64,000 nt of DNA from Thioalkalivibrio sp. ALE14. Its GTDB lineage: Bacteria; Pseudomonadota; Gammaproteobacteria; Ectothiorhodospirales; Ectothiorhodospiraceae. Under the pieces are notes generated by a model. The model saw only the letters and a program-made list of their open reading frames with translations. It made no database searches and was not told the origin of the DNA. Positions 25,723-62,117 of the stretch are shown here, one piece after another. A program made the position numbers and the translations under genes. The stretch lies in assembly GCF_000376845.1 (NCBI RefSeq), contig NZ_AQXY01000026.1, positions 1 to 64,000 of the forward strand, read 5' to 3'. The stretch's first letter is position 1. Every line of letters starts with the position of its first letter.

Positions 25723-25724
25723 GA

Positions 25725-32657: not shown

Positions 32658-33563
32658 ATGCAGTCGCAAAGCGCCCAGCGTCCCAACGCCCTGACCGTCG
32701 ATGTCGAGGACTACTTCCAGGTCTCGGCGCTGGCCCCGTGCATCCCGCGCGATACCTGGGATGCGCGCGAATGCCGGATCGAGCGGAACCTCGAGCGCAT
32801 CCTTGAACTGTTCGATCAGAACGGTGCGCAGGCAACCTTCTTTACCCTCGGCTGGATCGCCGAGCGCTATCCGCACGCGATCCGCCGCATCGTCGACGCC
32901 GGCCACGAGCTGGCAAGCCATGGCTACGGCCACGAGCGGGTCACGGACCTGACGCCCGCCGCCTTCCGGTCCGATATCGAGCGCGCCCAGCGCATCATCG
33001 AGGACCTGTCCGGGGCCCCGGTTCGAGGTTATCGCGCGCCCAGCTTCTCCATCGGGGAGGGCAACCTCTGGGCGCTCGAGATTCTGCGCGAGGTCGGGCT
33101 GGAATACAGCTCGAGCATCTATCCCGTGCATCACGATCACTACGGTATGCCGGGGGCCCCGCGGCATCCGCATCGTCCGGTGTCCGCCGGGGTGCTGGAA
33201 CTGCCGCCGGCGACCCTGCGCATGGGCGGGCGCAACCTGCCAGCCGCGGGCGGCGGGTATTTCCGGCTGCTGCCGTACGCCCTGTCACGCCGGGCACTCC
33301 GGCGAATCGGGGCGGTGGATGCGATGCCGGCGGTTTTCTACTTCCACCCCTGGGAGATCGATCCCGGGCAGCCGCGAGTCCCCGGGCTGGGCGCGCGCAG
33401 CCGGTTCCGGCATTACGTGAACCTGCACCGGATGGAGTCGCGCCTGGAGCGTTTGCTACAGGACTTTCGCTGGGGCCGAATGGATCGCGTATTCGCCGCG
33501 GAACTGGCGACACCCGAAGACCCGGTACGGGCAAATGGGGACGGCCATGTACGAACCGCCTGA
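32658..33563 (+). CDS. XrtA-associated polysaccharide deacetylase (TIGR03006 type)
   Basis: A 301-residue NodB-type deacetylase. The metal-binding Asp is in TVDVEDYFQV near the N-terminus, the His pair in ELASHGYGH, and the Arg/Pro element in RGYRAPSFSI. A DUF3473-like C-terminal segment follows (FYFHPWEIDPGQPR). It would remove N-acetyl groups from EPS sugars. No signal peptide is seen, so it may act on lipid-linked intermediates in the cytoplasm, or be exported another way. It overlaps the next gene by 17 bp. Confidence 0.92.
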   Translation: MQSQSAQRPNALTVDVEDYFQVSALAPCIPRDTWDARECRIERNLERILELFDQNGAQATFFTLGWIAERYPHAIRRIVDAGHELASHGYGHERVTDLTPAAFRSDIERAQRIIEDLSGAPVRGYRAPSFSIGEGNLWALEILREVGLEYSSSIYPVHHDHYGMPGAPRHPHRPVSAGVLELPPATLRMGGRNLPAAGGGYFRLLPYALSRRALRRIGAVDAMPAVFYFHPWEIDPGQPRVPGLGARSRFRHYVNLHRMESRLERLLQDFRWGRMDRVFAAELATPEDPVRANGDGHVRTA

Positions 33564-34614
33564 TCAGCGCGCCAGCGGCACCGGTGCCCTCCAGGTACGG
33601 ACCCTGGCCGCAACCGATCATGCGCGCTGGGACCGGTTCGTGGAGAGCTGTCCCCAGGCAACCTTTTTCCATCGGGCCGGCTGGTCGACGGTGCTGCGCG
33701 AGGCGTTCGGGCACGAGACCTATTTCCTCTACGCCGAGGCGGATGGCGCCATCCAGGGCGTGTTGCCACTGGCGCGCATCCAGTCCCGACTGTTCGGGCA
33801 CTCGCTTTCCTCGCTGCCGTTCTGTGTTTACGGCGGTGTTGCCGCGGTCACCGACGCCGCGGCCGCAGCGCTGGATGCCCGGGCGCAGGCCCTCGCGCGC
33901 AGTTTGAATGTCGACTACCTCGAATACCGGAACCTCGAACCCCGGCACCCGGACTGGCCGACCAAGAGCGAGCTCTACGTGACCTTCCGCCGCCTGCTGG
34001 ATCCCGATGTCGAGGCGAACATGAACGCGATCCCGCGCAAGCAGCGCCGGATGGTGCGCAAGGGCATCAAGGCGGGGCTGGTCAGCGAGGTCGACGCGGA
34101 TCTCGACCGCTTCTATCCGATCTACGCGGCCAATGTCCGGCGCATGGGGACCCCGGTCTTCGCGCAAAAATACTTCCGCCTGCTGCTGGAGGTGTTTGGC
34201 GAGGATTGCGACGTGCTGACGGTGACGCACGAGGGCGAAGCGGTTGCCAGCGTGGTGAGCTTCTGGTTCCGCAACGAGGTGCTGCCCTACTACGGCGCGG
34301 GAACCCCGCGGGCCCGCGAAGTCGCGGGCTACGACTTCCTTTACTGGGAGCTGATGCGCCGTGCCTGCGAGGCAGGCTACCGCGTGTTCGACTTCGGCCG
34401 GAGCAAGCGCGATACCGGTTCCTTCAGCTTCAAGAAGAACTGGGGTTTCGAGCCGCAGCCGCTGTACTACGAATACGACCTGGTCCGGGCCCGCGAGATG
34501 CCGGACGTCAATCCCCTCAATCCCAAGTACCAGTACTTCATCAAGGCCTGGCAGCGCCTGCCCCTGCCGGTCGCCAACTGGCTCGGCCCCAAAATCTCCC
34601 GCTCCCTCGGCTGA
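33547..34614 (+). CDS. XrtA-associated FemAB-like GNAT-fold protein (TIGR03019 type)
   Basis: A 355-residue FemAB/Fem-related protein with two acetyltransferase-fold halves. Recognisable pieces are FFHRAGWSTVLREAFGHETY, the basic IPRKQRRMVRKG element, and the C-terminal YRVFDFGRSKRDTGSFSFKK. Fem proteins transfer amino acids from aminoacyl-tRNA to an amine; exosortase-linked members are thought to modify EPS or PEP-CTERM proteins, but the substrate is unknown. I prefer the ATG at 33547 (GGGGA upstream) over 33535. After it the plus-strand operon is interrupted by a repeat-flanked GxxExxY gene. Confidence 0.88.
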   Translation: MYEPPDQRASGTGALQVRTLAATDHARWDRFVESCPQATFFHRAGWSTVLREAFGHETYFLYAEADGAIQGVLPLARIQSRLFGHSLSSLPFCVYGGVAAVTDAAAAALDARAQALARSLNVDYLEYRNLEPRHPDWPTKSELYVTFRRLLDPDVEANMNAIPRKQRRMVRKGIKAGLVSEVDADLDRFYPIYAANVRRMGTPVFAQKYFRLLLEVFGEDCDVLTVTHEGEAVASVVSFWFRNEVLPYYGAGTPRAREVAGYDFLYWELMRRACEAGYRVFDFGRSKRDTGSFSFKKNWGFEPQPLYYEYDLVRAREMPDVNPLNPKYQYFIKAWQRLPLPVANWLGPKISRSLG

Positions 34615-35302: not shown

Positions 35303-36553
35303 ATGGATGATCTTTTGTATTTGGTGCATCGGATTCCGTGGCCGCCGAACAAGGGCGACAAGATTCGCTCGCACCACATCCTGCGCTATCTGGCGCGGCA
35401 CTACCGCGTACACCTGGGTACCTTTATTGACGACCCGGCGGATGCCGTCTACCTGCCGGAGCTCAAGAAGTTGTGTACCAGCGTCTGCGCCCGACCGCTC
35501 CCGCGTCGGCGTGCGCAGTTGCGCGCGCTGACCGGCTTCTTCACCGGCGAGCCGCTGACCGTGCCGTGGTATCGCGACAGGGAGCTGGCGCGCTGGGTTC
35601 GTGCGACGTTGATCCGCCAGCCAGTGGCCCATGCGGTGGCCTTCTCTTCGGCGATGGCCCAGTACCTGCCGGAGGGCAGTGGGCGGACCCGAGTGGTCGA
35701 TTTCGTGGACGTGGATTCGGACAAGTGGACCCAGTACGCCCCCACCCGGCGCTGGCCCATGAGCGCGGTGTATCGGCGGGAAGGGCGTCGGCTGCTGGCC
35801 TACGAGCGGCAAGTGGCGCAGGCCAGCAACGCGAGCCTGTTCGTCTCGCCGGCCGAGGCGGAGGCCTTTCGTGAGCGGGCACCGGAGGTCGCCGGCCGGG
35901 TGCACGCGCTGAACAACGGCGTGGATGCCGGCCGTTTCTCGCCCGACGCGGTTGCGGGTCTGGATCCCTATCCCGACGGGGTGCGCGCCATCGTCTTCTC
36001 CGGCGCGATGGATTACTGGCCCAATGTCGACGCGGTGGTCTGGTTCGCCGACCACGTCCTGCCCGCGTTGCGCGCCGAACACCCGGATGTGGAGTTCTGC
36101 ATCGTCGGCAGCCGACCCGCCCCCGAGGTAGCGGCCCTGGCGGCCCGGCCCGGTGTGACGGTAACCGGGTTCGTGGACGACGTGCGCCCGTGGATCGCGC
36201 ACGCGACGGTTGCGGTCGCGCCGTTACGCATTGCCCGCGGGGTGCAGAACAAGGTGCTGGAGGCGATGGCCCTGGGGCGCCCGGTCGTGGCCAGCCCGCA
36301 GGCCCTGGAGGGCCTGACGGCGCGTATCGGGAGCGAGGTCATCCAGGCCGAGGCCGACCCCCGCGCCTTCCTGGAGGCCGTTTCCGGGTATCTGCGCGCG
36401 CCGGATCCGGCGCTCGGGCACGCGGCGCGGGCCCGAGTATTGGCGGATTACGACTGGGCGCGCAACCTCTCGTACCTGGGCGAGATCCTTCGCCGTCGCC
36501 CGGGCCCTGCGCCTGGAGCCGAACCGACCGTGGAGGCCGCGCATGGCCGCTGA
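35303..36553 (+). CDS. XrtA-associated glycosyltransferase (stp1, TIGR03087 type)
   Basis: A 416-residue GT-B fold glycosyltransferase. The N-terminus LVHRIPWPPNKGDKIRS is characteristic of the PEP-CTERM/EpsH1-associated sugar transferase family. The C-terminal domain has IVFSGAMDYWPNVDAV, VTVTGFVDDVRPWI and GVQNKVLEAMALGRPVVAS, the GT4-like nucleotide-sugar-binding region. It adds a sugar to the lipid-linked EPS unit; donor and linkage cannot be read. It overlaps xrtA by 11 bp. Confidence 0.9.
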   Translation: MDDLLYLVHRIPWPPNKGDKIRSHHILRYLARHYRVHLGTFIDDPADAVYLPELKKLCTSVCARPLPRRRAQLRALTGFFTGEPLTVPWYRDRELARWVRATLIRQPVAHAVAFSSAMAQYLPEGSGRTRVVDFVDVDSDKWTQYAPTRRWPMSAVYRREGRRLLAYERQVAQASNASLFVSPAEAEAFRERAPEVAGRVHALNNGVDAGRFSPDAVAGLDPYPDGVRAIVFSGAMDYWPNVDAVVWFADHVLPALRAEHPDVEFCIVGSRPAPEVAALAARPGVTVTGFVDDVRPWIAHATVAVAPLRIARGVQNKVLEAMALGRPVVASPQALEGLTARIGSEVIQAEADPRAFLEAVSGYLRAPDPALGHAARARVLADYDWARNLSYLGEILRRRPGPAPGAEPTVEAAHGR

Positions 36554-38093
36554 CGCACTCGATACCCGGACGCGTGCAAGCGGTTCGTCCTGGTGGCTGG
36601 CCGGCCCGGTACTGGTGCTGGGGCTGGCTGTGCTGGGGTGGATGTTCTACCCGACATTCGCGTCAATCGTGGATGTCTGGAACCGGTCGGATACCTTTGC
36701 CCATGGCTTCCTGATCGTTCCGATCGTCCTGTTCCTGCTGTTTCTGAAGCGTCAGGAGGTGCTGGCCCTGGAGCCGCAGCCATCGTGGTGGGCGCTGGTA
36801 CCCCTGGCGGGTTTTTCCCTGGTCTGGGTGGCAGGAGAGCTGGTGGATGTCGTGTCAGTGCGCCAGTTCGCGGCCGTGCTGATGATCCCCGCTCTGTTCT
36901 GGCTGGTGCTAGGCAATGCGATTACCTGGCGCTTGCAGTTCCCCCTAGCGTATTTGCTGTTCGCGGTTCCGTTTGGCGAATTCCTGGTCCCGCCGCTGAT
37001 GGACTTCACCGCGGATTTCACCGTGGCGGCGGTGCAGCTGACCGGGATCCCGGTCTATCGCGACGGGCTGTATTTCGATTTGCCCACCAGTCGCTGGTCG
37101 GTCATCGAGGCCTGCAGCGGTGTGCGCTATCTGATTGCGTCGGTCGCACTCGGGACGCTGTATGCCTATCTCATGTACCGCAGTACCTGGCGCAGGCTCG
37201 TGTTTGTGGGCGTTTCCATCGTGGTCCCGATCGTGGCCAACGGGCTGCGGGCCTACATGATCGTGATGATCGGGCATCTGAGCGACATGGAGTATGCGGC
37301 CGGGGTCGATCACCTGATCTATGGCTGGATCTTCTTCGGCGTGGTGATCGCGCTGATGTTCGGGATCGGGGCCTTCTGGCGCGAGGACATGGATGCGCCC
37401 GGCGCGCCGGTGCGCAGCGTGGCGCCGGGACGTTCGCCGCATGCCGGGTCGTTCGCTGTAGCGGCCGTGCTGGCGGTGGTGCTGGCCAGCGCGGCGCCGC
37501 TGTATGCGGAGTGGATGAACCAGCGGGATCTGGGTCCGGTGGCGGGGCTGGGTGCCGGGCCGCTGACGCCACCCGGCTGGCGGGCGCTGGAGGATCAGTC
37601 CAACGCGTGGGAGCCGGGCTACCGGGGCGCCCGGGACGGCCGCGGCGGTCTGGTCGTCGCGGAAGAAGGCGGGCCGCCGGTGGGCATGCACGTATTGTTC
37701 TACCGCAAGCAGCACCAGTACGGGACCATGGTGGGCTGGAGCAACACCCTGGCCGGGCGTCATCGCGCGGGGGTCTGGTCGCAATCGCATCGCGGGCGGA
37801 CCGCGGTCGACGGCTATCCCGATCCGGACCGTTTCCTGCTGAACGGGCCCGGGCAGCAGCTTCTCGTCTGGCGCTGGTACTGGGCGGGTGGCCAGCTGAC
37901 GACGCTGCCGCACACGGTCAAGGCTCGGGAGGCGCTGAACCGGCTGGTGGGCGGTCGGGACGACGCCGCGCTGGTGGTGTTCTACGCGCCCTATGACCTT
38001 GAGTCTGACGAGGTCGAGGCGGCCCTTCAGGCCTATGCAGCCGACGCCCTCCCGGGCATCCTCGAACGGCTTGCCACCGTCACGCGACAGTGA
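36543..38093 (+). CDS. xrtA: Exosortase A fused to an EpsI domain
   Basis: A 516-residue inner-membrane protease/transpeptidase that recognises PEP-CTERM tails. About eight membrane helices fill residues 20-285. The catalytic triad is intact: C191 in EACSGVRY, R236 in NGLRAYMIV and H257 in VDHLIYGW. After a short linker a further helix (about 298-320) leads into a 200-residue periplasmic domain of the EpsI type (about 320-510), encoded in the same frame rather than as a separate gene. It sits between two exosortase-linked glycosyltransferases with overlapping ends on both sides, so the three are translationally coupled. Its visible substrate is the PEP-CTERM protein at 17579-18553; others may lie elsewhere in the genome. 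Confidence 0.95.
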   Translation: MAADALDTRTRASGSSWWLAGPVLVLGLAVLGWMFYPTFASIVDVWNRSDTFAHGFLIVPIVLFLLFLKRQEVLALEPQPSWWALVPLAGFSLVWVAGELVDVVSVRQFAAVLMIPALFWLVLGNAITWRLQFPLAYLLFAVPFGEFLVPPLMDFTADFTVAAVQLTGIPVYRDGLYFDLPTSRWSVIEACSGVRYLIASVALGTLYAYLMYRSTWRRLVFVGVSIVVPIVANGLRAYMIVMIGHLSDMEYAAGVDHLIYGWIFFGVVIALMFGIGAFWREDMDAPGAPVRSVAPGRSPHAGSFAVAAVLAVVLASAAPLYAEWMNQRDLGPVAGLGAGPLTPPGWRALEDQSNAWEPGYRGARDGRGGLVVAEEGGPPVGMHVLFYRKQHQYGTMVGWSNTLAGRHRAGVWSQSHRGRTAVDGYPDPDRFLLNGPGQQLLVWRWYWAGGQLTTLPHTVKAREALNRLVGGRDDAALVVFYAPYDLESDEVEAALQAYAADALPGILERLATVTRQ

Positions 38094-39469: not shown

Positions 39470-41365
39470 ATGTGCGGCATCACCGGCATCTTCGATCTGC
39501 GCGACCGGCGACCGGTAAACCGGTCCCTGCTGGAGGCGATGAACGAGACCCAGTTTCACCGGGGTCCGGACGAGGGTGGCGTACACCTGGAGCCGGGCGT
39601 GGGGCTGGCGCATCGTCGCCTTTCGATCATCGACCTCGCGAGTGGGCAGCAGCCGCTGTTCAACGAGGACGAAACCGTCGTCGTGACCTACAACGGGGAG
39701 ATCTACAACTTTCCCGAGCTGACCACCGAGCTGCAGCAGGCGGGGCACCAGTTCCGCTCCCATTGTGATACCGAGGTGATCGTGCACGCCTGGGAAGAGT
39801 GGGGCGAGGCCTGCGTGCAGCGCTTTCGCGGCATGTTTGCCTTCGCCGTCTGGGATCGCAATCGCGACACCCTGTTCCTGGCCCGTGACCGGCTGGGGAT
39901 CAAGCCCCTGTACTACAGCGCGCTGGCGGACGGGCACCTGATCTTCGGCTCGGAGCTCAAGGCGCTGATGGCGCACCCAGGGATGCCGCGAGAGATGGAT
40001 CCGCATGCGGTGGAGGACTATTTCGCCTTTGGCTATGTGCCGGAGCCGCGCAGCATCTTCCGCGGCGTGCACAAGCTGCCGCCGGGCCATACGCTGACCC
40101 TGCGCCGTGGCCAGGGCAACCTGACCGAGCCACGCGAATACTGGGATGTGCCCTTCGCGGACAACGGGGTGGCGGATGCCGACACCGCCGCCGAGGAACT
40201 CACCGCCCGCCTGCGGGAGGCGGTGGATATCCGCATGGTGGCCGATGTTCCGCTGGGGGCGTTTTTGTCCGGCGGAGTGGACTCCAGCGCGGTGGTCGCG
40301 ATGATGGCGGGGCTGTCCGATGATCCGGTCCGGACCAGTTCTATCGGCTTTGCCGATCCCGCCTACGACGAATCCCGCTACGCGCGGATGGTCGCCGAGC
40401 GTTACCACACCGATCACCACACGCAGGAAGTCGATCCCGACGACTTCGCGCTACTGGATCGGCTGAGCGGGCTGTACGACGAACCGTTTGCCGACAGTTC
40501 CGCGCTGCCGACCTATCGCGTCTGCGAACAGGCGCGCCAGCAGGTGGTGGTGGCGCTTTCCGGGGACGGCGGCGACGAGAACCTCGCCGGGTACCGCCGC
40601 TACCGCCACCACCTGGCCGAGGAACGCCTGCGGTCGCCCCTGTCCCTCGGGCTGCGGCGACCACTGTTCGGCACCCTTGCGAAACTCTATCCGAAGGCCG
40701 ACTGGGCCCCGCGTCCGCTGCGCGCCAAGGCGACCTTCCAGGCGCTGGCGCGGGACTCGGTGGAGGGCTATTTCCAGGGCGTATCCATCCTGCGCGACGA
40801 CCTGCGCGCGCATCTGTTTTCGCCGGCATTCCGGCGCTCGCTTCAGGGCTACAGCGCGGTGGAGGTCCTGCGTCGGCATGCGGCGCGCGCGCCTACCGAG
40901 CATCCGTTGTCGCTGGTGCAGTACCTGGACATGAAGACCTACCTGCCGGGCGACATCCTGACCAAGGTCGACCGCGCGAGCATGGCGCATGCGCTGGAGG
41001 TGCGCGTCCCGATCCTCGACCACCAGCTGGTCGAGTGGATCTCGGGCTTGCCGCCGGAGCTCAAGTTGCATGGGGCGGAGGGCAAGTACGTCTTCAAGAA
41101 GGCCATGGAGCCCTACCTGCCGGAAGAGATCCTCTATCGTCGCAAGAAGGGGTTTGCCGTGCCGGTGGCCGAATGGTTCCGTGGCCCATTGCGCGAACGC
41201 ATGCAGGCGCAGGTGCTGGGGCCGCGCATCGCCGACTCCGGCATCTTCGACATGGACTACCTCAAGACCCTGGTGGACCAGCACACCAGTGGCGCCCGCG
41301 ACCACAGCCCGGCGCTTTGGTCATTGCTGATGTTCGAGGGCTTCCTGGCCCGATCAACGGCCTGA
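39470..41365 (+). CDS. XrtA-associated amidotransferase, asparagine synthase-like (TIGR03108 type)
   Basis: A 631-residue glutamine-dependent amidotransferase of the AsnB superfamily. The N-terminal glutaminase is complete: catalytic Cys2 (MCGITGIF), HRGPDEGG and YNGEIYNF. The synthetase domain has the ATP pyrophosphatase loop LSGGVDSSAV (about residues 264-273) and the C-terminal KVDRASMAHALEVRVPILDH. It should move ammonia from glutamine to a carboxylate, probably a uronic acid of the EPS or a small decoration, rather than make free asparagine. It is followed after 10 bp by a glycosyltransferase. Contrast the second homologue at 45690-47513, whose glutaminase is degenerate. Confidence 0.92.
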   Translation: MCGITGIFDLRDRRPVNRSLLEAMNETQFHRGPDEGGVHLEPGVGLAHRRLSIIDLASGQQPLFNEDETVVVTYNGEIYNFPELTTELQQAGHQFRSHCDTEVIVHAWEEWGEACVQRFRGMFAFAVWDRNRDTLFLARDRLGIKPLYYSALADGHLIFGSELKALMAHPGMPREMDPHAVEDYFAFGYVPEPRSIFRGVHKLPPGHTLTLRRGQGNLTEPREYWDVPFADNGVADADTAAEELTARLREAVDIRMVADVPLGAFLSGGVDSSAVVAMMAGLSDDPVRTSSIGFADPAYDESRYARMVAERYHTDHHTQEVDPDDFALLDRLSGLYDEPFADSSALPTYRVCEQARQQVVVALSGDGGDENLAGYRRYRHHLAEERLRSPLSLGLRRPLFGTLAKLYPKADWAPRPLRAKATFQALARDSVEGYFQGVSILRDDLRAHLFSPAFRRSLQGYSAVEVLRRHAARAPTEHPLSLVQYLDMKTYLPGDILTKVDRASMAHALEVRVPILDHQLVEWISGLPPELKLHGAEGKYVFKKAMEPYLPEEILYRRKKGFAVPVAEWFRGPLRERMQAQVLGPRIADSGIFDMDYLKTLVDQHTSGARDHSPALWSLLMFEGFLARSTA

Positions 41366-45689: not shown

Positions 45690-47513
45690 CTAGCGCGCGG
45701 CAGGGTGGGACTCGAGCCAGAGGTCGAGCATCATCAGGATCCAGACGAAATCGCCGTAATAGGCCGCATGCCCCTCGCGGTGCAGGCGGATCAGCTCGTC
45801 GATGAAGTCGTCGCGCAGGAAATCGCGGCCCTTCAGGCGCAGCAGGCTGTCGTAGGCGAGTTCCTGTAATGGGGCGTGCTCCTGCATCCAGACGCCGAAT
45901 GGCAGGCCGAAGCCGTGTTTCTTCTTGTCGATGATGGCGTCGGGCAGAAAGCCGGTGAGCGCCTCCTTGTAGAAGTGGCGCAGCCGGCCGTTTTTCAGCT
46001 TGAGGTCCGACGGCACGCGACAGGAGAACTCCACCAGGTCGTCGTCCAGCATCGGGAAGGCGACGTCCACCCCGGCCAGCTGGCACATCTCCGCGACCTT
46101 GCGCAGGTCGTTGTCGGCCAGGGTCTGCTGCCAGTCCAGGTACATCATGCGGTTGAGTGACGACGCCGATTCCGGCTCCGAATAGATCCGGCGCATGAGT
46201 TCCCAGGGTGCTTCGGTGTCCACCGCCGCGAGAAACTCCGGCTCGAACATCGCCTCCGGCGCCAGGCGGTGCAGGTAGTTGTAGGTCTGCAGTCGGTCCG
46301 GCAGCGGGATGCGGGCCTGCTCCACGTAGCTGCGGGCCTTGCCAGCCAGCGGCAGTCCACGCGGCAACCGGGTAAACAATGGATCGAGCAGGTGGTGGCG
46401 CAGCGGCGCGGGAATCCGGCCCCAGTGTTCGAACACCCCTTGCTTGGCGTAGCGCGCATTGCCGGCGAAGAGTTCGTCACCGCCATCACCAGCCAGTAGC
46501 CGGGTGATGCCGGCGTCGGCCGCCATGCGCGCGCAGAAATAGGCCGGCAGCGCCGAGGAGTTGCCGAAGGGCTCGTCGTAGCTGCGAGCGATCCGGGGTA
46601 CGGCCTCGACCACGTCCTCCGGCGTCACGTAATACTCGTGGGCCTCGGTGCCGAAGTGCTGTGCGGCGATGCGCGCATACTCCATCTCGTCGTAACCGGG
46701 GGCATCGAAGCCGATGCTGAAGCTGTCCGCCCCGGGGTGTTTGCCGGCGAGCATTCCGGCGACGGTCGAACTGTCCAGGCCGCCGCTCAGGAAGGCGCCG
46801 GGGTGTGGCGTGTCCGCTCGGCGGTCCACTGCCGCTTGCACGTGTTCGCGCAGGGCCTTTTCCAGGGCCTCGGGCGTGGCGCTGCGGTCTTCCTCGAAGC
46901 GCGGGCTCCAGTAGCGGGTTACTTCGGCCCGGTCGCCGTTGTGGGTCAGGCAGTGGGCGGCCGGCAGTTTCTCCAGCCCGGCGAACAGGCTGACCGGGGC
47001 CGGAAGCATGTGGAAGAAGCAGTAGTGGTAGAGGCCCTCGCGGGTCACCTCGGTAGCGACTGCCGGGTGGGCAGCCACACACCCGGCACTGGTGCCAAAC
47101 GCCACGCCGCCATTCAGCCGTGCATAGTGGAGCGGTGTCTGGCCCAGGCGATCGGTGCCGGCCACCAGCCGGCCCCGGCCGGCATCCAAGATGACCAGCG
47201 CATAGTCGCCGCTGACCTGTTCGAACAGGCCGGTGCCGTGTTGTCGCCAGGCCTCCAGCAGGGCCTGCGCGGGGTCGCGTTCGCGTGCGCGTTCCGCCAG
47301 TGAGGGTTTGCGCCATTGCGGATGGCCGGCGATTGCGGCGATGACGTCCCCTTCCTGTGCGGTCGAGCCGCCCCGAACCAGGCAGCCACCCAGGCGGTTC
47401 GTACACCGGGATTCAGGCGCCCCGGCGAGCCCCGGAAGGGCCGCCCCCTGGGCCTCGAGGGCGTCGCCCGGGGATGCGGCATTCACCGCGAACCATCCAC
47501 AAAGTCCCGCCAT
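45690..47513 (-). CDS. Asparagine-synthase-like protein with degenerate glutaminase domain
   Basis: A 607-residue AsnB-superfamily protein on the strand opposite its neighbours. The synthetase domain is intact: LSGGLDSSTV, LAGDGGDELFAG and a C-terminal region ending in DKKKHGFGLPFGVWM. The glutaminase half looks inactive. The first Cys is residue 5 (MAGLCGWF), not residue 2, and the RGPD-x-x-G and NGEIYN motifs of the homologue at 39470-41365 are absent. It may use free ammonia, or form an amide or lactam by adenylating a carboxylate as beta-lactam synthetases do. No alternative start gives a Met-Cys N-terminus. It lies beside the ACP and hydrolase genes, divergent from the ACP. Confidence 0.85.
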   Translation of the reverse strand: MAGLCGWFAVNAASPGDALEAQGAALPGLAGAPESRCTNRLGGCLVRGGSTAQEGDVIAAIAGHPQWRKPSLAERARERDPAQALLEAWRQHGTGLFEQVSGDYALVILDAGRGRLVAGTDRLGQTPLHYARLNGGVAFGTSAGCVAAHPAVATEVTREGLYHYCFFHMLPAPVSLFAGLEKLPAAHCLTHNGDRAEVTRYWSPRFEEDRSATPEALEKALREHVQAAVDRRADTPHPGAFLSGGLDSSTVAGMLAGKHPGADSFSIGFDAPGYDEMEYARIAAQHFGTEAHEYYVTPEDVVEAVPRIARSYDEPFGNSSALPAYFCARMAADAGITRLLAGDGGDELFAGNARYAKQGVFEHWGRIPAPLRHHLLDPLFTRLPRGLPLAGKARSYVEQARIPLPDRLQTYNYLHRLAPEAMFEPEFLAAVDTEAPWELMRRIYSEPESASSLNRMMYLDWQQTLADNDLRKVAEMCQLAGVDVAFPMLDDDLVEFSCRVPSDLKLKNGRLRHFYKEALTGFLPDAIIDKKKHGFGLPFGVWMQEHAPLQELAYDSLLRLKGRDFLRDDFIDELIRLHREGHAAYYGDFVWILMMLDLWLESHPAAR

Positions 47514-47698
47514 CCGTCCGCCTGTTGCCTGGTCGGTCCAGGGAAACGCTGGTTGATGTATGCACCCGGGCGTGGGCCCGGCGATCCGTGCCGTCTTTGG
47601 TCGTTATTCTACGTCCGGGGTCGGGTGTTCGAGGGGGTGCGGGATCCGGGGGGTTAACGAGCCGATCACGCGGGAGTCGTGGCGTCTCGGCGATGATC

Positions 47699-47726
47699 TG
47701 GACAGCCTGTGCAGATGCGGTAACCT
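47699..47726 (+). promoter_or_regulatory. Possible sigma-70 promoter of the ACP-hydrolase operon
   Basis: TGGACA (47699-47704) and TAACCT (47721-47726) are 16 bp apart and lie 56 bp before the ACP start codon. Matches to the consensus are partial. The 269-bp gap between the divergent synthase and ACP genes must hold promoters for both; this is the best candidate seen for the plus strand. Confidence 0.4.
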
Positions 47727-47782
47727 GCCTGCTAACCCGCATCCCCGGCCGGGCACGGATACCCGCCTTCAGGAACCCTTAT

Positions 47783-48038: not shown

Positions 48039-48842
48039 ATGGAAGCCGGGTTCCTGGAAGGCAAGGCCGGGCCGGTGTTCCATGTGCTGCATCGGCCGGA
48101 TGGTCCGTCCGTTCGGGGCGCGATCCTGTTTGTCCCGCCCCTGGCCGAAGAACTCAACAAGTCCCGCCGCATGGTGAACCTGCAGGCCCGCCGCATGGCG
48201 CAGGCTGGGTACGCGGTGCTGATCCCGGATCTCTACGGATGCGGCGACAGCGGCGGCGACTTCGGCGACGCCGACTGGGATCTCTGGCTGGACGACCTCG
48301 CCCGCTGCAGCGACCACCTCGAAGCCTGCTGCCCGGCGCCGCTTGTGGTCTGGGGGTTGCGCGCGGGATGTCTGCTGGCAGGCGATTTCCTGGCCGCGCG
48401 GACCGAACAAGCCGCAGCCGCGATCTACTGGGCGCCCGTCACCAATGGCGAACAGCACCTGACCCAGTTTCTCCGCCTGCGCATGGCCGCCGGCATGATG
48501 GGCGGGCAGAAGGAATCCACAGGTGATCTGCGTTCGCGGCTGCGGGATGGCGAAGCACTGGAAGTGGCGGGCTACACGCTTGCGCCCACCCTGGCCGAGC
48601 GCCTTGCCACCGCCCGCCTGGAGCAGCCCCGCGCGGCATCCATTGCCTGGTTCGACATCGCGGCACAGGATGATGCCCCGCTACCGCCGGCGGCCGAACG
48701 CCTGATCGAGCGCTGGCGCGAAGAGGGGGCGGCCGTAACCGCAACGGTCGTGGGCGGCGACGCCTTCTGGTCCACCCAGGACATCATCGAGGTGCCGCAA
48801 TTGCTGGAGGCGACCACGCAGTGCCTGGAGGCCCTGGCGTGA
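48039..48842 (+). CDS. Exosortase A-associated hydrolase 2 (TIGR03101 type)
   Basis: A 267-residue alpha/beta-hydrolase-like protein. The N-terminal region has ILFVPPLAEELNKSRRMVNL and LIPDLYGCGDSGGDFGD, diagnostic of the family always found with exosortase A EPS genes. At the nucleophile elbow position the sequence reads VVWGLRAGC, so the usual Ser of G-x-S-x-G is replaced; catalysis may not be standard. It starts 7 bp after the ACP stop and overlaps the next gene (GTGA). Likely role: release or transfer of the acyl group carried by the ACP (inference). Confidence 0.88.
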   Translation: MEAGFLEGKAGPVFHVLHRPDGPSVRGAILFVPPLAEELNKSRRMVNLQARRMAQAGYAVLIPDLYGCGDSGGDFGDADWDLWLDDLARCSDHLEACCPAPLVVWGLRAGCLLAGDFLAARTEQAAAAIYWAPVTNGEQHLTQFLRLRMAAGMMGGQKESTGDLRSRLRDGEALEVAGYTLAPTLAERLATARLEQPRAASIAWFDIAAQDDAPLPPAAERLIERWREEGAAVTATVVGGDAFWSTQDIIEVPQLLEATTQCLEALA

Positions 48843-49720
48843 GCGAGCGTGCCGTTGTCTTCCGGGTGGGGGAGGAGGAACTGCTGGGTATCCTGCACCC
48901 CGGCGCGGAGGGCGCCCGGCGTGGTGTGCTGATTGCCGTGGGCGGGCCGCAGTACCGCGTGGGCAGCCACCGCCAGTTCCTGCTCCTGGCTCGACACCTG
49001 GCGGCGCAGGGGATACCCGTGTTCCGCTTCGATTTTCGCGGCATGGGGGATTCGTCCGGCGCCCAGCGCGATTACGAGGAGGTCCACGATGACCTGCGGA
49101 CAGCCATGGAGACTTTCTCGGCCGAGATGTCGGGGATGCACGAGGTGGTGATCTGGGGGCTTTGTGGCGCTGCTTCCGCCGGCCTGTTCTATGCCTGGCG
49201 CGATGACCGGGTGGCGGGCCTGGTCCTGGTAAACCCCTGGGTTCGAACCAGTGACGGGCTGGCACGAGCCTACCTGAAGACTTACTACCTTCAGCGCCTG
49301 GCCAGTCGCGACTTCTGGAACGGGGCCCTGCGCGGGCGACTGAACCCGTGGAACTCGGTGAAATCCCTCGCGGGCATGACCAAGGCCGCCCTGCGTCCCC
49401 AAGCCCCCAATTCGGATTTGCGGGACATGGGCCCCGATACGGACCATGGCCCCCTGCCGGAGCGGATGGCCGCGGGCTGGAAGCGCTTTCAAGGACCGAT
49501 CCTCGTGATCCTGAGTGGCGACGACCTGACCGCGGCCGAGTTTCGCGATGTGGCGACCAATGCGCCGGCATGGAGCGGGCTGCTGCAGGAGCCGCGGGTA
49601 ACCCTGCAGGAACTACCGGCTGCCAACCACACCTTCTCCCGACGCGAGTGGCGCGATCAGGTGGCGAACTGGACCCATGACTGGGTACAGGGTCTTCCGG
49701 TGGAAGGCACAGAGTCATGA
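48839..49720 (+). CDS. Exosortase A-associated hydrolase 1 (TIGR03100 type)
   Basis: A 293-residue alpha/beta-hydrolase-like protein. GGPQYRVGSHRQFLLLARHL and FDFRGMGDSSG are diagnostic of the family. The elbow reads IWGLCGAAS, with Cys in the position usually taken by Ser, which may be a Cys nucleophile. The C-terminal His is probably in PAANHTFSRREW. The GTG start overlaps the stop of hydrolase 2, and its own stop overlaps the next gene by 4 bp, so the series ACP-hydrolase 2-hydrolase 1-GT2 is translationally coupled. Confidence 0.88.
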   Translation: MSERAVVFRVGEEELLGILHPGAEGARRGVLIAVGGPQYRVGSHRQFLLLARHLAAQGIPVFRFDFRGMGDSSGAQRDYEEVHDDLRTAMETFSAEMSGMHEVVIWGLCGAASAGLFYAWRDDRVAGLVLVNPWVRTSDGLARAYLKTYYLQRLASRDFWNGALRGRLNPWNSVKSLAGMTKAALRPQAPNSDLRDMGPDTDHGPLPERMAAGWKRFQGPILVILSGDDLTAAEFRDVATNAPAWSGLLQEPRVTLQELPAANHTFSRREWRDQVANWTHDWVQGLPVEGTES

Positions 49721-50691
49721 CGGCGCGGGACGACGACAAGCCGCTGGTGTCGGTCGTCATGCCGGCCTACAACACGGCCGCATACATCGCCGAGTCCGTG
49801 GACAGTGTCCTCGACCAGGACTACCCCAACGTCGAGTTGATCGTGGTGGATGATGGCTCGACCGACGGGACGATCGAGATCCTGCGCGAGTATGGCGACC
49901 GCCTGAGGTTGCTGACCCAGCAGAACCAGGGCGCGGCCGTGGCCCGCAATGCCGGCATCGCACAGTCGCAGGGCGACTACATCGCCTTTATTGATTCCGA
50001 TGATGTCTGGCTCCCGGGCAAAGTCGCGGCCCAGGTGGAGCACATGGACCGGCATCCCGAGATCGGGATGACCTTCACGGCCTGGCATAACTGGAAGCCT
50101 GATCCGTCCGGCACGTTCCAGAAACCCGATGCGGCCAAGGGAGCGCACCCGATGAACCCTGACGGAAAACCGCTTCTGGATCGCGGTTCCGGCTGGCTGT
50201 ACAACCGTCTGCTTTTCGGTTCGCTGCCTCACACCATCACGGTCATGATGCGACGCGATCTGGTCGAACGCGTTGGGCAGTTCGACCCTGAACTCAAGAG
50301 AGGCCAGGACTACGATTACTGGCTGCGGGCTTCCCGCTTGACCGAGATCCACCAACTGAACCTCGTGACCGCTCTCTACCGGCTTCATGGCGAGGGCTGT
50401 ATCACCAAGTACCCCGACACGAACTATGAATTCGAGGTCGTCCGCAAGACGCTCGGCCGCTGGGGTCGGGTTGGCCCGGGCGGAGAGCAGACGTCACGCG
50501 GCGCGATTCGCAGGCGCCTTGCCGAGACCTGCTTCAGTTTCGGCTATCACCATTACTGGGAGGGGGACCCGAGGCTGGCGGCACGGTCGTTCCTGCAATC
50601 GACGCTTCGAGACCCCTGGTCCGTGTCCACCTGGGCCTATCTGGTCCTGAGTGCCGGGAAGAGTCTGACAGGGAGACGCAAGGCGCGGTGA
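49717..50691 (+). CDS. Family 2 glycosyltransferase
   Basis: A 324-residue GT-A fold glycosyltransferase. The N-terminal domain has VSVVMPAYNTAAYIAESVDS, VDDGSTDGTIEIL and the donor/metal motif FIDSDDVWLPGK. The C-terminal part continues with KRGQDYDYWLRAS. It starts at the ATG overlapping hydrolase 1. It adds a sugar to the repeat unit or a side chain. It opens the accessory block that runs to 60.5 kb. Confidence 0.9.
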   Translation: MTARDDDKPLVSVVMPAYNTAAYIAESVDSVLDQDYPNVELIVVDDGSTDGTIEILREYGDRLRLLTQQNQGAAVARNAGIAQSQGDYIAFIDSDDVWLPGKVAAQVEHMDRHPEIGMTFTAWHNWKPDPSGTFQKPDAAKGAHPMNPDGKPLLDRGSGWLYNRLLFGSLPHTITVMMRRDLVERVGQFDPELKRGQDYDYWLRASRLTEIHQLNLVTALYRLHGEGCITKYPDTNYEFEVVRKTLGRWGRVGPGGEQTSRGAIRRRLAETCFSFGYHHYWEGDPRLAARSFLQSTLRDPWSVSTWAYLVLSAGKSLTGRRKAR

Positions 50692-50758: not shown

Positions 50759-51583
50759 GTGACTGAAGATCCATCTTCCGCCCAGGCCGAGCTGGTCGAG
50801 GCCGAAGCCTACGAGAGCATGATGCAGCTAGCTGAAAGCGCGGGGATCCCGGGCTTTCGAGCGGTCCGCTGCGGGACGCATGTTGCCCTGATCGCTCCGG
50901 CCCTGAAGAAGATGCTGGTCTTTAACCGGGTGTTGGGATTGGGCGTTTCAGGCCCGGCAACCGAGGGCCATATTGATGAACTAGCCGCCCTGTACGCCGA
51001 GCATGACCTTCCCTGGGCAATTGAACTCAGCCCTCATGCCCGCCCCGAGCCCATCCCCCAATGGTTACGCGATCGCAAGATTCGCCGGGCAGCGGCATCT
51101 GCAGTCCTGACGCGGTCCAGCAGCGACGTTCCCGAGGGGAAGACCGATCTCGAGATTCGCCCCTGGCGGCCAGAAGACCAGGATGCCGGCGCCGCGCTGG
51201 CGGTGGATGCGTTCTCAGTGCCGCAGGAAGCAAAGGCGCTTCTGGCGGAGCTGCCGCGTTCACCCAAGTGGCGTCAGTGGCTGGCGCTCGACGATGGAAC
51301 GGTTGTGGCAACCGGCCTGTTGTATCTCGGGAATGGCGCGGCCTGGGCCGGCTGGGAAGCAACCCGCCCGGACTATCGGGGCCGTGGATTGCATGGGGCC
51401 CTCCTCTCCGCCTGCCTCAGGGACGCGGCGCGGCATGGATGTACGTCGGTGATTACCGATACCGCCGTGGGTGCACCGGACAAACCGGACCCGTCCTATC
51501 AAAACCACCTCCGCAAGGGCTTCGAGGTCTCGCATTTGCGGCATACATACCTGGCGGTGCCGGGCGTGGTGACTCCGTCGTAG
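50759..51583 (+). CDS. GNAT-family acetyltransferase
   Basis: A 274-residue protein. The C-terminal half (about 125-265) is a GNAT domain with EIRPWRPEDQDAG and the acetyl-CoA loop RPDYRGRGLHGALLSA. The N-terminal half (about 15-110) resembles a second, degenerate GNAT repeat. A GTG start at 50759 has a very strong ribosome-binding site (AGGAGGAGG). It is convergent with the adenylation enzyme, the two stops being 7 bp apart. It may acetylate an amino sugar or the amine of the amino acid activated by its neighbour; inference from context. Confidence 0.84.
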   Translation: MTEDPSSAQAELVEAEAYESMMQLAESAGIPGFRAVRCGTHVALIAPALKKMLVFNRVLGLGVSGPATEGHIDELAALYAEHDLPWAIELSPHARPEPIPQWLRDRKIRRAAASAVLTRSSSDVPEGKTDLEIRPWRPEDQDAGAALAVDAFSVPQEAKALLAELPRSPKWRQWLALDDGTVVATGLLYLGNGAAWAGWEATRPDYRGRGLHGALLSACLRDAARHGCTSVITDTAVGAPDKPDPSYQNHLRKGFEVSHLRHTYLAVPGVVTPS

Positions 51584-51590
51584 CGTGCCC

Positions 51591-53204
51591 TTACTGTGTT
51601 GCAGTTTCTTCGAGGTCCGAAATCAGCGCCTTGCGGTCGACCTTGCCGTTCGCATTTAGCGGCAGGTTGTCCAGCGAGTGGATGGTTCGCGGGACCATTA
51701 CGGCGGGCAGGCGCTGGCGGAGCCGGTCGCGCAGGGCTGCCTCGTCGACTCCTTCCGCGACCACAAAGGCCACGATGCCGGAGGCGCCGCTTTCCGTTCG
51801 TGGCCATCCAATGGCCACGGCCTGGTCCGTGCCGGCGGCCTCGCGTAGTTCGGCTTCCACTTCTCCGAGTTCGATGCGCACCCCGCCAATCTTGATCTGG
51901 TGATCCAGGCGCCCGAGAAAGATGATCGGTTCGCCTGGGGGCGGTCGGCGCACCAGGTCCCCCGTGCGGTAGTGCACGCGCCCGTCGTCCAGATGCACGA
52001 AGGCCTGCGCCGTGCGCTCTGGGTCCTTCCAGTAGCCGGGGGTCACCTGTGGCCCGCTGATCAACAACTCGCCCTCGGCGCCGATGGCCACCTCCTGCAG
52101 GGTCTCGTCCGCCACGCGCAGTCCAACCTGGTTGCCCGGATAGCCGATCGGGGCCATTCCGTGCTCGCATTCCGTCGGTGATTGCTCCGGCTCCCAGCGG
52201 TAAAAGCAGGCATCCACCGTGCACTCGGTGGGCCCGTAGGCATTGTCGATCCAGGCATTGGGTGCGGCGGCGGCCATCGCCTCGGCCAGCTCCGCCGAGA
52301 GGGCCTCGCCGCCAAAGCGGCACAGGCGCAGGTCCGGAAAGCGTCCCGGTGCCCATCCGTTGCGACGGTTCATCCCGTGCCCGGCCGAGGGGGTGATGTC
52401 GATCACCGTGAGAGCCTTGTCCGCAATGTAGCGGTTGGGGTTGAACCATTCCTTCGCGGAGGGGCAGCAAAGGCAGGCACCAAACGCCCACGACACGTAG
52501 AGGTCGAACATTGAGGAATCGAAGGTGATGTCGTAGAACTGCGAGAAGCGGTCCGTCTCGTTGATGCCGAAGTCGCGGTAGCGCTCCTGCGACATCTCTA
52601 CAAAACGCGTCACATTGCTTTGCAGGACACCCACGCCCTTGGGAACGCCGGTGCTGCCGGAGGTGAAGAACAGGCAGGCCAGATCATCCGGAGATATGGT
52701 CGCTGGCGCCCATTCCGTTGGCCGGAGGGAATCCTCGATCACCCGGAAGTCGTGCCGGGGCCAACGCATTTTCAGCTCATCCAGCCGCTCCGCATCGGGC
52801 AGCAGTATCGCGAGTGGACGGGAAAGGCCCCTCAGCAGTTCATCGAGCCGTTCCAGCCCCTGGTGATCTACCAGCAAGCCCGCCAGCTCGGCCTGTTCGG
52901 CCATGGCGATCGTGCGTTCCGCGGGAAAGCCCGGATTCAGCGGGACCAGTGTATGGCCGGCCATCAGGGCCCCCAGGATGCCCTGGTACATTGGCAGCGA
53001 GCGCTGCGCCAGTACACCGACCCGAGCCGGTATGCCTGCACTCAGGGCCTGTTGCAGCGCATGAGCAACATCCGCCCCCGCTTCGAATAGCTCGCGGTAG
53101 GTGAACACGCGGCCCTCCACGTCCAGCGCAGGGCGGTCGGGGAATCGTTCTACCGAACGCAGGAAGCCGGTCAGCGCGCCCCTCGTTAGCCCGGCGTTTG
53201 GCAT
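51591..53204 (-). CDS. Stand-alone amino acid adenylation enzyme (NRPS A-domain/DltA-like)
   Basis: A 537-residue adenylate-forming enzyme with the canonical A-domain motifs: FFTSGSTGVPKGV (A3), FDSSMFDLYVS (A4), NAYGPTECTV (A5), GELLISGPQV (A6), YRTGD (A7), GRLDHQIKIGGVRIELGEVE (A8) and LNANGKVDRKAL with the A10 Lys. No carrier or condensation domain is attached. The nearest free carrier protein is the ACP at 47783-48031. It probably activates an amino acid for attachment to the EPS or to that ACP. It is on the minus strand, divergent from the ABC transporter gene; the specific amino acid cannot be read with confidence. Confidence 0.88.
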   Translation of the reverse strand: MPNAGLTRGALTGFLRSVERFPDRPALDVEGRVFTYRELFEAGADVAHALQQALSAGIPARVGVLAQRSLPMYQGILGALMAGHTLVPLNPGFPAERTIAMAEQAELAGLLVDHQGLERLDELLRGLSRPLAILLPDAERLDELKMRWPRHDFRVIEDSLRPTEWAPATISPDDLACLFFTSGSTGVPKGVGVLQSNVTRFVEMSQERYRDFGINETDRFSQFYDITFDSSMFDLYVSWAFGACLCCPSAKEWFNPNRYIADKALTVIDITPSAGHGMNRRNGWAPGRFPDLRLCRFGGEALSAELAEAMAAAAPNAWIDNAYGPTECTVDACFYRWEPEQSPTECEHGMAPIGYPGNQVGLRVADETLQEVAIGAEGELLISGPQVTPGYWKDPERTAQAFVHLDDGRVHYRTGDLVRRPPPGEPIIFLGRLDHQIKIGGVRIELGEVEAELREAAGTDQAVAIGWPRTESGASGIVAFVVAEGVDEAALRDRLRQRLPAVMVPRTIHSLDNLPLNANGKVDRKALISDLEETATQ

Positions 53205-60481: not shown

Positions 60482-61912
60482 TCAGTTTCGGGGTGAAGAC
60501 GGCCTCATGAGGGTGCCCGACATGACCGTGTCGCTTCCCGTCTTGACCGGGTCGGGGCCGGGGGAGGAGGACGGTTCCGGCTGTACCGGACTGCTGGCGA
60601 CCGGAGCCGTAGCGGGCTGTGGGGCCTGTTCCAGTTCTCTGCGCATGATGACGGCCAGGGCGACAAAGGCGTACAGGAGGTTGAAATAGGCGACGTCCAG
60701 GAAGATGCCGGATATCAGGTAGCCCACAAGCCCGACCTGGAGGGCCCAGGCGTATTCCGACAGCCAGATCTCCCCGGTCCGCTGGCGCGCCGTTCGCCGG
60801 ATCCGATTGAGCGTGTGAAAGGTGAAGGCGATCAGCAGCAGAAAAACGGCCAGGCCGCCAAATCCATGCTGACCCAGGAGCCCAAAATACACGCTGTGGG
60901 GGGACAGTACGTGGCGCCAGCCACCTTCGAAATTGGCATAACCAATCCACCAGTCATAACCGAGGGCCGTGTTGCGGAAGCCCATGCCGGTGAGTGGTCG
61001 TTCCATCGCCATGTTCCAGGCCACTCCCCAGGACTGGATGCGCTGCATGGCGGACTGGTCTTCCTCGTAGGTTTCGATTGTTTGCCAGCGTTCAACCAGT
61101 GGCTCCGGCGCGGTAACGCCCATCACCACCACCAGGAAAAAACCGACGAGGACCATCAGCCACTTCTTGTGCATGTGCCAGAAGAGCAGGGGTACGATGG
61201 CGAGCAGGCCGACGAATGCCCCTCGCGAGTGAGTGGTCAGGATTGCGATGGCGGTGAGCCAGAAGACGCCGTAGAGGAACCACCCGATCGGGCGCGAGAA
61301 GCGGCTTAGGAGCTCGAAGCCAAGGTCGGCCGACCAGCGCTGGTGGAACATCCGGGCGGAGGCCAGGATGAGGGGCAGGACCATGAGCATGGCCAGCCCG
61401 ATATAGGTGTTGCCGGAGAGGTACGAGCCGGTGGGGCCGAGGACCATGTGGGCCCCGCCCGTCTGGATGGCGAAGATGCCGCCCTTGAACCCGTAGAAGG
61501 CGAGCGAGGCGGTGATGACCAGCAATAGCCACACGATGCGGCGCTCGCCGTAGATTAGTAGCGGGGTAATGAAAGTGATCAGCAGGATCTTCATGAAGTG
61601 GATCCAGAAGTCCCACGCCCCGCTCGAGTTGACCGCGAAGTGGCTGGTCATCGCGAAATAGGCCGCCAGCGCGAACAGCATGACCGTCTCGCGGGTGAAC
61701 GGGAACGGTTGCCGGTCCTTGGCCAGGAACAGTGCGATCAGGGTCGCCCCGCCGAAGTAGGTGGCCAGGGGCGCCCCGCGCATGAACGTCCAGGTGTGCC
61801 ACTGGGGCGCAAAGAGTCCGACCCAGAACCAGGCCAGGATGCCGATCCACGCGTAGCGCACGATCAGGGGCACGAGCACGACGACGATCAGGGCGAGCAG
61901 GTAGTCACGCAT
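60482..61912 (-). CDS. XrtA-associated O-antigen ligase/polymerase-like protein (TIGR03097 type)
   Basis: A 476-residue inner-membrane protein of the O-antigen ligase/Wzy superfamily with about ten to twelve hydrophobic segments. The long periplasmic loop typical of ligases contains SVYFGLLGQHGFGGLAVFLL and the preceding WRHVLSPHS, and TTHSRGAFVGLLAIVPLLF carries the conserved Arg region. Family members are described as exosortase A-linked O-glycosylation ligases; polymerase activity on the EPS unit is an alternative. I start it at the ATG at 61912; an upstream ATG at 61966 would add 18 residues without a ribosome-binding site. The C-terminus is a Pro/Ser-rich cytoplasmic tail. Confidence 0.86.
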   Translation of the reverse strand: MRDYLLALIVVVLVPLIVRYAWIGILAWFWVGLFAPQWHTWTFMRGAPLATYFGGATLIALFLAKDRQPFPFTRETVMLFALAAYFAMTSHFAVNSSGAWDFWIHFMKILLITFITPLLIYGERRIVWLLLVITASLAFYGFKGGIFAIQTGGAHMVLGPTGSYLSGNTYIGLAMLMVLPLILASARMFHQRWSADLGFELLSRFSRPIGWFLYGVFWLTAIAILTTHSRGAFVGLLAIVPLLFWHMHKKWLMVLVGFFLVVVMGVTAPEPLVERWQTIETYEEDQSAMQRIQSWGVAWNMAMERPLTGMGFRNTALGYDWWIGYANFEGGWRHVLSPHSVYFGLLGQHGFGGLAVFLLLIAFTFHTLNRIRRTARQRTGEIWLSEYAWALQVGLVGYLISGIFLDVAYFNLLYAFVALAVIMRRELEQAPQPATAPVASSPVQPEPSSSPGPDPVKTGSDTVMSGTLMRPSSPRN

Positions 61913-62117
61913 GCAGTTCGAACCTCGCGCCGCTGTGGCTGGGTCAGGCGATAGGGGCTGGCTCATGGCCCGTTTCGTCGCATGTTACACGCGGCCGCTC
62001 CGGTGTAACCCCGGGCCGACGAACGGGCTACTAACGGTGCGCCCGGGCCGCGGCCGGAAGCGGCAGGTGCCTGAGGTATGATCGAGCCGTCAGATTCCGA
62101 TACCCCCGGGCGCCGAG

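Follow-up and report, generated by a model that had tools for sequence, protein, structure and literature searches.

AsnL gene and family scores

The 64,000-nucleotide stretch of Thioalkalivibrio sp. ALE14 DNA analysed here (positions 1 to 64,000 of contig NZ_AQXY01000026.1, hereafter the window) carries, on the minus strand at 45690-47513, a gene for a glutaminase-dead protein of the asparagine-synthase family, for which we use the working name AsnL. The 607-residue frame begins at the first start codon past the upstream stop, ends exactly at these coordinates and contains no internal stop. AsnL belongs to the Asn_synthase family (PF00733), which it matched with 273 bits over residues 221-601 against a gathering cut-off of 21. 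The motifs SGGLDSS, DEPFGN, GDGGDELF and KKHGFGLPFG were all seen, in good agreement with the original prediction, made from the DNA letters, that the synthetase half is intact. The RGPD and NGEIYN motifs are missing, as also predicted, and the match to the Pfam family GATase_7 was limited to residues 82-143. In an NCBIfam scan all models stayed below cut-off for AsnL. The top score was reached with the XrtA amidotransferase model TIGR03108 (273.7 bits, cut-off 816.9), and neither the glutamine-hydrolysing asparagine synthetases (TIGR01536, 245.8 bits, cut-off 267.1) nor the lasso peptide cyclases (NF033535, 115.7 bits, cut-off 525) include AsnL; an ikarugamycin-type cyclase model gave 89.8 bits.

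Degenerate glutaminase half

We aligned AsnL and its relatives together with the intact TIGR03108-type sister protein encoded in the same window. Initially, 97 frames with more than 250 bits and more than 430 residues were collected, of which 93 were kept at more than 500 residues. Counting the window protein in each group, the alignment held 73 AsnL rows and 22 sister rows, each assigned to the window protein with which it scored better. The start of AsnL, MAGLCGWF, aligns without gaps with MCGITGIF, placing Ala2 in the column of the catalytic cysteine while Gly3 and Gly6 of the MCGI.G motif are retained. A catalytic cysteine at position 5 instead of 2 had been proposed for AsnL. The lack of a cysteine at position 2 holds, but no shift took place, as Cys5 falls in the separate, variable fifth column, which contains a cysteine in 22 of the 73 AsnL rows and also in an intact sister from locus L119 (MCGICG). 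In structural alignments, residue 2 of the AsnL model corresponds to chain residue 1 of AsnB (1ct9), GlmS (1jxa) and PurF (1ecb), which we take to be the catalytic cysteine of these mature enzymes, and to residue 2 of TsnB9 and EgtC. Codon 4 of AsnL is CTT and not a start codon, so that no alternative start makes Cys5 the second residue. Among 11 sequences examined, codon 4 was CTT, CTC, CTA, TTT, ATT, ATC or ATA; the last three are rare starts, and for relatives carrying them an alternative start is excluded by the alignment alone.

Besides a cysteine directly after Met, class II (N-terminal nucleophile, Ntn) glutamine amidotransferases carry an arginine, an asparagine and an aspartate as glutamine-site residues. 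AsnL of the window has none of these, with Ala, Leu, Ala and Pro standing in the columns of Cys, Arg, Asn and Asp. Throughout the AsnL rows, Cys was retained in 0, Arg in 4, Asn in 0 and Asp in 6 of 73 cases, compared with 20, 21, 21 and 22 of 22 sister rows. None of the four residues is kept in 64 AsnL rows, one is kept in 8 and two in a single row, while 20 of the 22 sisters keep all four, the exceptions (L057 and L129) being incomplete at a DNA end. RGPD and NGE never occur jointly in the 73 AsnL rows, and only one row (L087) has an RGPD. Judged by these residues, loss of the glutaminase was shown to be common to the whole clade examined. N-terminal processing is known for some glutamine amidotransferases, and AsnL could in principle regain an active glutaminase once a short N-terminal piece is removed and Cys5 is freed. 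This is next to impossible, given that the cysteine position is taken by residue 2 and not 5, that the glutamine-site Arg, Asn and Asp are likewise substituted and that Cys5 is so seldom a cysteine among relatives; an intact Ntn site after processing was accordingly not seen.

Conserved synthetase half, phylogeny and structure model

The synthetase half behaves differently. The SGG, D and S of the pyrophosphate (PPi) loop and the acids of GDGGDE are kept in all 73 AsnL rows, and the catalytic lysine in 71, the remaining two being gaps. The GDGGDE-loop acid D343 is found in 73/73 AsnL rows and 18/22 sister rows. The mean frequency of the commonest residue was 0.32 in AsnL and 0.62 in the sisters for residues 1-80, and 0.44 and 0.63, respectively, for residues 81-200, whereas both groups reached 0.61 for residues 235-545. 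Because conservation drops in the first two segments but equals that of the sisters in the third, constraint was lost in the glutaminase half only. Further, AsnL and the sister family have different fixed residues at six synthetase sites, three of which are invariant in all AsnL rows (AsnL/sister: N318/D342, C327/V351 and N352/Y375).

As assigning rows by score is circular, we built a tree from the synthetase half only, which leaves out the trait region. All 73 AsnL rows fell on one side of a single branch with a support of 100/100. The joint presence of RGPD and NGE requires four changes on this tree and not one, since the pattern is also absent from L121_4705, L129_3401 and own_L004. The first of these is a sister that keeps the NGE column and yet misses the pattern, and the second is an incomplete row. 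Two long branches, L055_14744 and own_L004, also meet in this tree. One old event is the simplest reading of the glutaminase loss as it appears in the alignment and tree. The original prediction of an asparagine-synthase homologue without its glutaminase is therefore borne out for the whole family by alignment, residue counts, conservation and tree.

The structure model of AsnL (mean pLDDT 92.9) has both domains folded. In alignment and model, the ATP site of the PPi loop, the GDGGDE loop and the catalytic lysine were shown to be kept, and the predicted Ntn fold persists although Cys, Arg, Asn and Asp are gone. The hydroxyamidotransferase TsnB9 (7ylz) was the best solved match by both sequence and fold (Z 32.7, 20% identity). 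E. coli AsnB (1ct9) followed with a Z of 30.1 over 452 residues; its whole fold is shared and PPi loop, catalytic loop and lysine align, but AsnL is only 19% identical to it, lacks the glutaminase site and occurs in an exopolysaccharide context. Beta-lactam and carbapenam synthetases (1jgt, 1q15) also share the asparagine-synthase fold, with Z values of 24 to 28 (1mc1 27.9, carbapenam synthetase 25.1), while their sequence scores were lower than that of AsnB. The family TIGR03108, of which WbpS is the characterised relative, resembles AsnL in synthetase half, size, exopolysaccharide and exosortase surroundings and host genomes. AsnL differs from it by its far lower model score, the absence of the tested glutaminase residues, its fully supported separate branch and distinct fixed residues, among them N318, C327 and N352.

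Gene cluster of the window

AsnL lies in an XrtA/PEP-CTERM exopolysaccharide cluster, as TIGR03109, 03108, 03101, 03100, 03019, 03006, 03097, 03098 and 03099 all scored over their cut-offs (Table 1). The start of hydrolase 2 was set by eye at ATG 48039, the listed ATG 47955 falling within the gene of the acyl carrier protein (ACP); the family scan was run from 47955. The intergenic stretch that separates the divergent AsnL and ACP genes might act as a shared control region. The genes of the TIGR03098 ligase and TIGR03099 decarboxylase overlap by 4 bases and, together with an ACP, resemble the BtrI/BtrK carrier chemistry.

Table 1. Features of the AsnL gene cluster in window coordinates
Feature	Coordinates	Strand	Evidence
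XrtA system polysaccharide deacetylase	32658..33563	+	TIGR03006 443.6 bits, cut-off 276.2
FemAB family XrtA-associated protein	33535..34614	+	TIGR03019 520.3 bits, cut-off 260.35
Exosortase A (XrtA)	36543..38093	+	TIGR03109 361.5 bits, cut-off 208
Intact sister, XrtA/PEP-CTERM amidotransferase	39470..41365	+	TIGR03108 1089.3 bits, cut-off 816.9; MCGITG, RGPD, NGEIYN
AsnL	45690..47513	-	607 aa, glutaminase-dead asparagine-synthase-family protein
AsnL-ACP intergenic gap, divergent genes	47514..47782		269 bp, from coordinates
Acyl carrier protein, 82 aa	47783..48031	+	PF00550 26.6 bits; phosphopantetheine Ser in LDSM
Exosortase A-associated hydrolase 2, Arg at nucleophile position	48039..48842	+	TIGR03101 282.7 bits, cut-off 202.75
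Exosortase A-associated hydrolase 1, Cys at nucleophile position	48821..49720	+	TIGR03100 324.7 bits, cut-off 168.45
Family 2-type glycosyltransferase	49717..50691	+	only below-cut-off family matches
GNAT-type acetyltransferase	50759..51583	+	PF00583 33.5 bits
Stand-alone amino-acid adenylation enzyme	51591..53204	-	TIGR01733 318.5 bits, cut-off 317.4; close to adenylation (A) domains of nonribosomal peptide synthetases
Putative O-glycosylation ligase / Wzy	60482..61966	-	TIGR03097 341.6 bits, cut-off 188.1
AMP-forming ligase, exosortase A-associated	62118..63719	+	TIGR03098 786.3 bits, cut-off 592.35
Pyridoxal phosphate-dependent decarboxylase, first part	63716..64000	+	TIGR03099 622.9 bits, cut-off 478.45; continues to contig position 64951

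Past the window end, the TIGR03099 gene is followed by more genes that by eye resemble those of acyltransferases and deacetylases, by a wecB-type epimerase gene at contig positions 72220-73446 and, at about 74944-76458, by what looks, on inspection of its translation only, like a nucleotide-sugar dehydrogenase gene. With these genes, the cluster can plausibly make an amino-sugar uronate, which would provide a carboxylate usable by AsnL. Elsewhere in the window, we noticed by eye a protein with a PEP-CTERM-like tail (VPEPGTLALMGLSLLILAGF, then Arg-rich) at 17579-18553, and a ThiF/E1-like gene with two autoinducer-synthase-type, acyltransferase-like proteins at 23948-26492.

An ACP and two hydrolases with atypical nucleophile elbows had been predicted beside AsnL, and the family scans agree (PF00550, TIGR03101 and TIGR03100). 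Among rows above the score limit, window included, the nucleophile position is Arg in 23/23 for hydrolase 2 and Cys in 24/24 for hydrolase 1, while the phosphopantetheine Ser of the ACP is kept in 24/24. These residues suggest a thiol-based hydrolase 1 and a hydrolase 2 without hydrolytic activity. On a contig of a Haliea metagenome-assembled genome (L109:981-7889), the set of ACP, hydrolase 2 and hydrolase 1 is present twice.

Distribution and co-occurrence

We counted AsnL at E <= 1e-100 and other families at their curated cut-offs. Among 369 genomes sampled from the class, AsnL was present in 54, and in the order it was present in 20 of 47. XrtA was over cut-off in 73 of the 369 genomes and TIGR03108 in 65, and these include 49 and 51, respectively, of the 54 AsnL genomes (exceptions: G090, G098, G236, G293 and G310 for XrtA; G084, G098 and G310 for TIGR03108). 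AsnL is thus found in XrtA exopolysaccharide genomes, which strongly supports the exopolysaccharide context of the original prediction. AsnL and TIGR03108 share one contig in 31 of 51 genomes and lie within 20 kb in 22, numbers to which contig breaks contribute. Hydrolase 1 and TIGR03099 were over cut-off in 29 and 37 genomes, respectively. Each shares 24 genomes with AsnL and is absent from 30/54 AsnL genomes, and TIGR03099 accompanies hydrolase 1 in 28 of the latter's 29 genomes. The set of ligase, ACP, decarboxylase and hydrolases is a second, optional unit that often joins AsnL, and since hydrolase 1 is missing from so many AsnL genomes, the ACP/hydrolase module cannot define AsnL chemistry.

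In a locus survey of the best 80 named loci among at least 575 confirmed relatives, 77 of those listed had AsnL by best score, whereas L128, L130 and L131 have only the TIGR03108-like type. Judging by their titles, the AsnL loci listed represent Gamma-, Beta- and Alphaproteobacteria, Acidobacteria, Nitrospirae and Desulfobacula. In these 77 loci we counted, within 8 kb of AsnL, a deacetylase at least 28 times, Wzx at least 23, ACP at least 21, hydrolase 1 at least 20 and a TIGR03108-like gene at least 17 times, all lower bounds because neighbouring frames were picked by shared similarity and loci were cut by contig ends. Neighbour labels were taken from similarity clusters and a few family-scanned representatives. 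No AsnL relative was found on viral contigs, where two pattern matches occurred, and no AsnL match at 1e-60 was found on plasmids.

Four long AsnL frames were scanned among the named loci, and one of them (L089:8078-11767, from a Burkholderiaceae metagenome-assembled genome) has AsnL fused in frame behind an upstream PF13480 acyltransferase-type domain. Apparent fusions in G192, G303 and G398 (frames of 1,029-1,042 aa) were rejected, as the upstream part was judged by eye to be low-complexity, G+C-rich translation, and a long frame in G347 (1,003 aa with one TGA) is really a plain 620-aa frame.

Relation to published loci

When EmbRS-null Rubrivivax gelatinosus was screened by Tn5 mutagenesis for cells that aggregate less or not at all, 25 insertions mapped to the psc1 cluster (PMC3684757). 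The psc1 genes marked there as Tn5 targets include RGS1_10407, likened to WbpS, and RGS1_10435, which adjoins wzxC and is labelled a glutamine-hydrolysing asparagine synthase in the published table (PMC3684757). In a Rubrivivax genome of our set, AsnL (63.7 kb), a third homologue (78.1 kb) and the TIGR03108 type (98.7 kb) lie on one contig, with identities of 48, 26 and 31%, respectively, and Wzx adjoins AsnL. Because this gene order matches RGS1_10435, RGS1_10423 and RGS1_10407, RGS1_10435 is likely the AsnL orthologue, and by the residues of the family it is very unlikely to hydrolyse glutamine. The third homologue (G412:C54:78134-79642, 26% identity to AsnL) stands at the place of RGS1_10423.

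Further, two genes called asparagine synthetases belong to a floc cluster that is conserved between Zoogloea and Aquincola (PMC9012009), and a later paper reports that two such synthases were needed for floc formation (PMC7662799). The TIGR03108-type enzyme WbpS of P. gingivalis produces a uronamide (PMC7468200), and the same authors see, in the FemAB and TIGR03108 genes found close to exosortases, a link to a possible acceptor sugar. In the literature surveyed, which was covered in part, we found no description of a member with a dead glutaminase in these exosortase loci and no paper treating exosortase, asparagine synthase, acyl carrier protein and exopolysaccharide together.

Proposed function

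We propose that AsnL is an ATP-dependent amide synthetase which joins an amine other than glutamine to a carboxylate, probably of a uronic acid, of the XrtA-type exopolysaccharide, and we give this proposal an even chance of being right. In its favour stand the synthetase residues kept beside the lost glutaminase ones, the one-sided loss of constraint, the model and tree, the company of XrtA and TIGR03108, the sugar genes past the window end, the uronamide made by WbpS and the Tn5 hit in RGS1_10435. As in other enzymes of this fold, activation of the carboxylate would proceed through an acyl-adenylate. Because AsnL lacks a working glutaminase, the nitrogen must come from another source; a separate amine, instead of glutamine hydrolysed by the same protein, would then attack and yield an N-substituted amide. 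More tentatively, the carboxylate may be the C-6 of an exopolysaccharide uronic acid or of its nucleotide-sugar precursor, and the amine may be an amino acid, amino alcohol or amino sugar. In clusters that have it, as in the window, the ligase-ACP-decarboxylase-hydrolase module may provide this amine. Several points weigh against the proposal. Free ammonia is compatible with the evidence as the amine, and the GDGGDE-loop acid of AsnL is the same as in most of the ammonia-using sisters. Further, the bootstrap of the synthetase-half tree is not fully settled, the Fisher values for co-occurrence ignore genome kinship and thus overstate significance, and RGS1_10435 was equated with AsnL by position and not by sequence.

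With free ammonia, or ammonia from its TIGR03108 partner, AsnL would be a uronamide synthetase that converts a second uronic acid to its primary amide. The near-constant presence of TIGR03108 in AsnL genomes, its proximity in part of the surveyed loci and the identical GDGGDE acid and lysine favour such an enzyme. The two genes are often apart, however, again with a contribution of contig breaks, and six differently fixed synthetase sites would be expected if the substrates of AsnL and its sister differ, so that we regard an ammonia-dependent AsnL as possible though somewhat unlikely. The original prediction had favoured the logic of beta-lactam synthetases, that is, intramolecular ring closure. 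Beta-lactam and carbapenam synthetases close rings intramolecularly, possess a non-working Ntn domain and have a tyrosine at the position of the GDGGDE acid. AsnL shares their overall fold including the inactive Ntn domain, yet its sequence is nearer to amidotransferases, its best NCBIfam matches, TIGR03108 and TIGR01536, being intermolecular enzymes. Its D343, invariant in the family, stands where a tyrosine would be expected in a beta-lactam synthetase, and no scanned neighbour has a beta-lactam pathway family as its best match. Ring closure by AsnL is scarcely credible. Only slightly easier to imagine is a non-catalytic regulator or decaying pseudogene, as which AsnL might be seen because residues are gone from one half; the frame carries no stop, and the synthetase residues are invariant across several phyla and conserved as strongly as in the sister, making this most improbable.

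The neighbourhood of AsnL in the window points to another candidate substrate. TIGR03098 might load an amino acid onto the ACP, TIGR03099 might decarboxylate it there, comparable to BtrK, an enzyme of the same fold class that yields GABA-S-BtrI (PMC7857480), and AsnL might form the next amide bond. The adjoining ACP, hydrolase 2 and hydrolase 1, the fixed ACP serine and the overlap of hydrolase 1 genomes with both TIGR03099 and AsnL are in line with this. As a general job of AsnL, carrier-bound substrates are nonetheless unlikely, since more than half of the AsnL genomes lack hydrolase 1 and as many lack TIGR03099.

By analogy to type IX secretion, the amide proposed for AsnL could also have a role in protein attachment. 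Cargo of that system is amide-linked to an aminoacyl uronamide sugar, whose synthesis involves a TIGR03108-type enzyme besides a deacetylase and a transferase related to FemAB (PMC7468200). The window cluster has relatives of all three (the FemAB-related one being TIGR03019) plus AsnL, while no glutaminase-dead paralogue is described for the Wbp/Vim linking-sugar pathway, whose sugar is used by a sortase, in the parts of PMC7468200 consulted. The sugar to which PEP-CTERM proteins are joined by exosortase A would then be a uronic acid, and AsnL might equip it with its amine-bearing group. The absence of AsnL from 24 of the 73 XrtA genomes counts against this extension, which we consider quite unlikely; if true, the N-substituted amide would help to build the exosortase acceptor.

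Implications

In conclusion, the AsnL clade appears to consist of separate amide synthetases that are tied to exosortase exopolysaccharides and have no NCBIfam model of their own. For the likely orthologue in Rubrivivax, the published annotation (PMC3684757) is very unlikely to be right. If true, our assignment of the AsnL clade would account for a sugar decoration of bacteria that form flocs and biofilms, and would make AsnL a concrete enzyme with which to probe the chemistry of exosortase systems.

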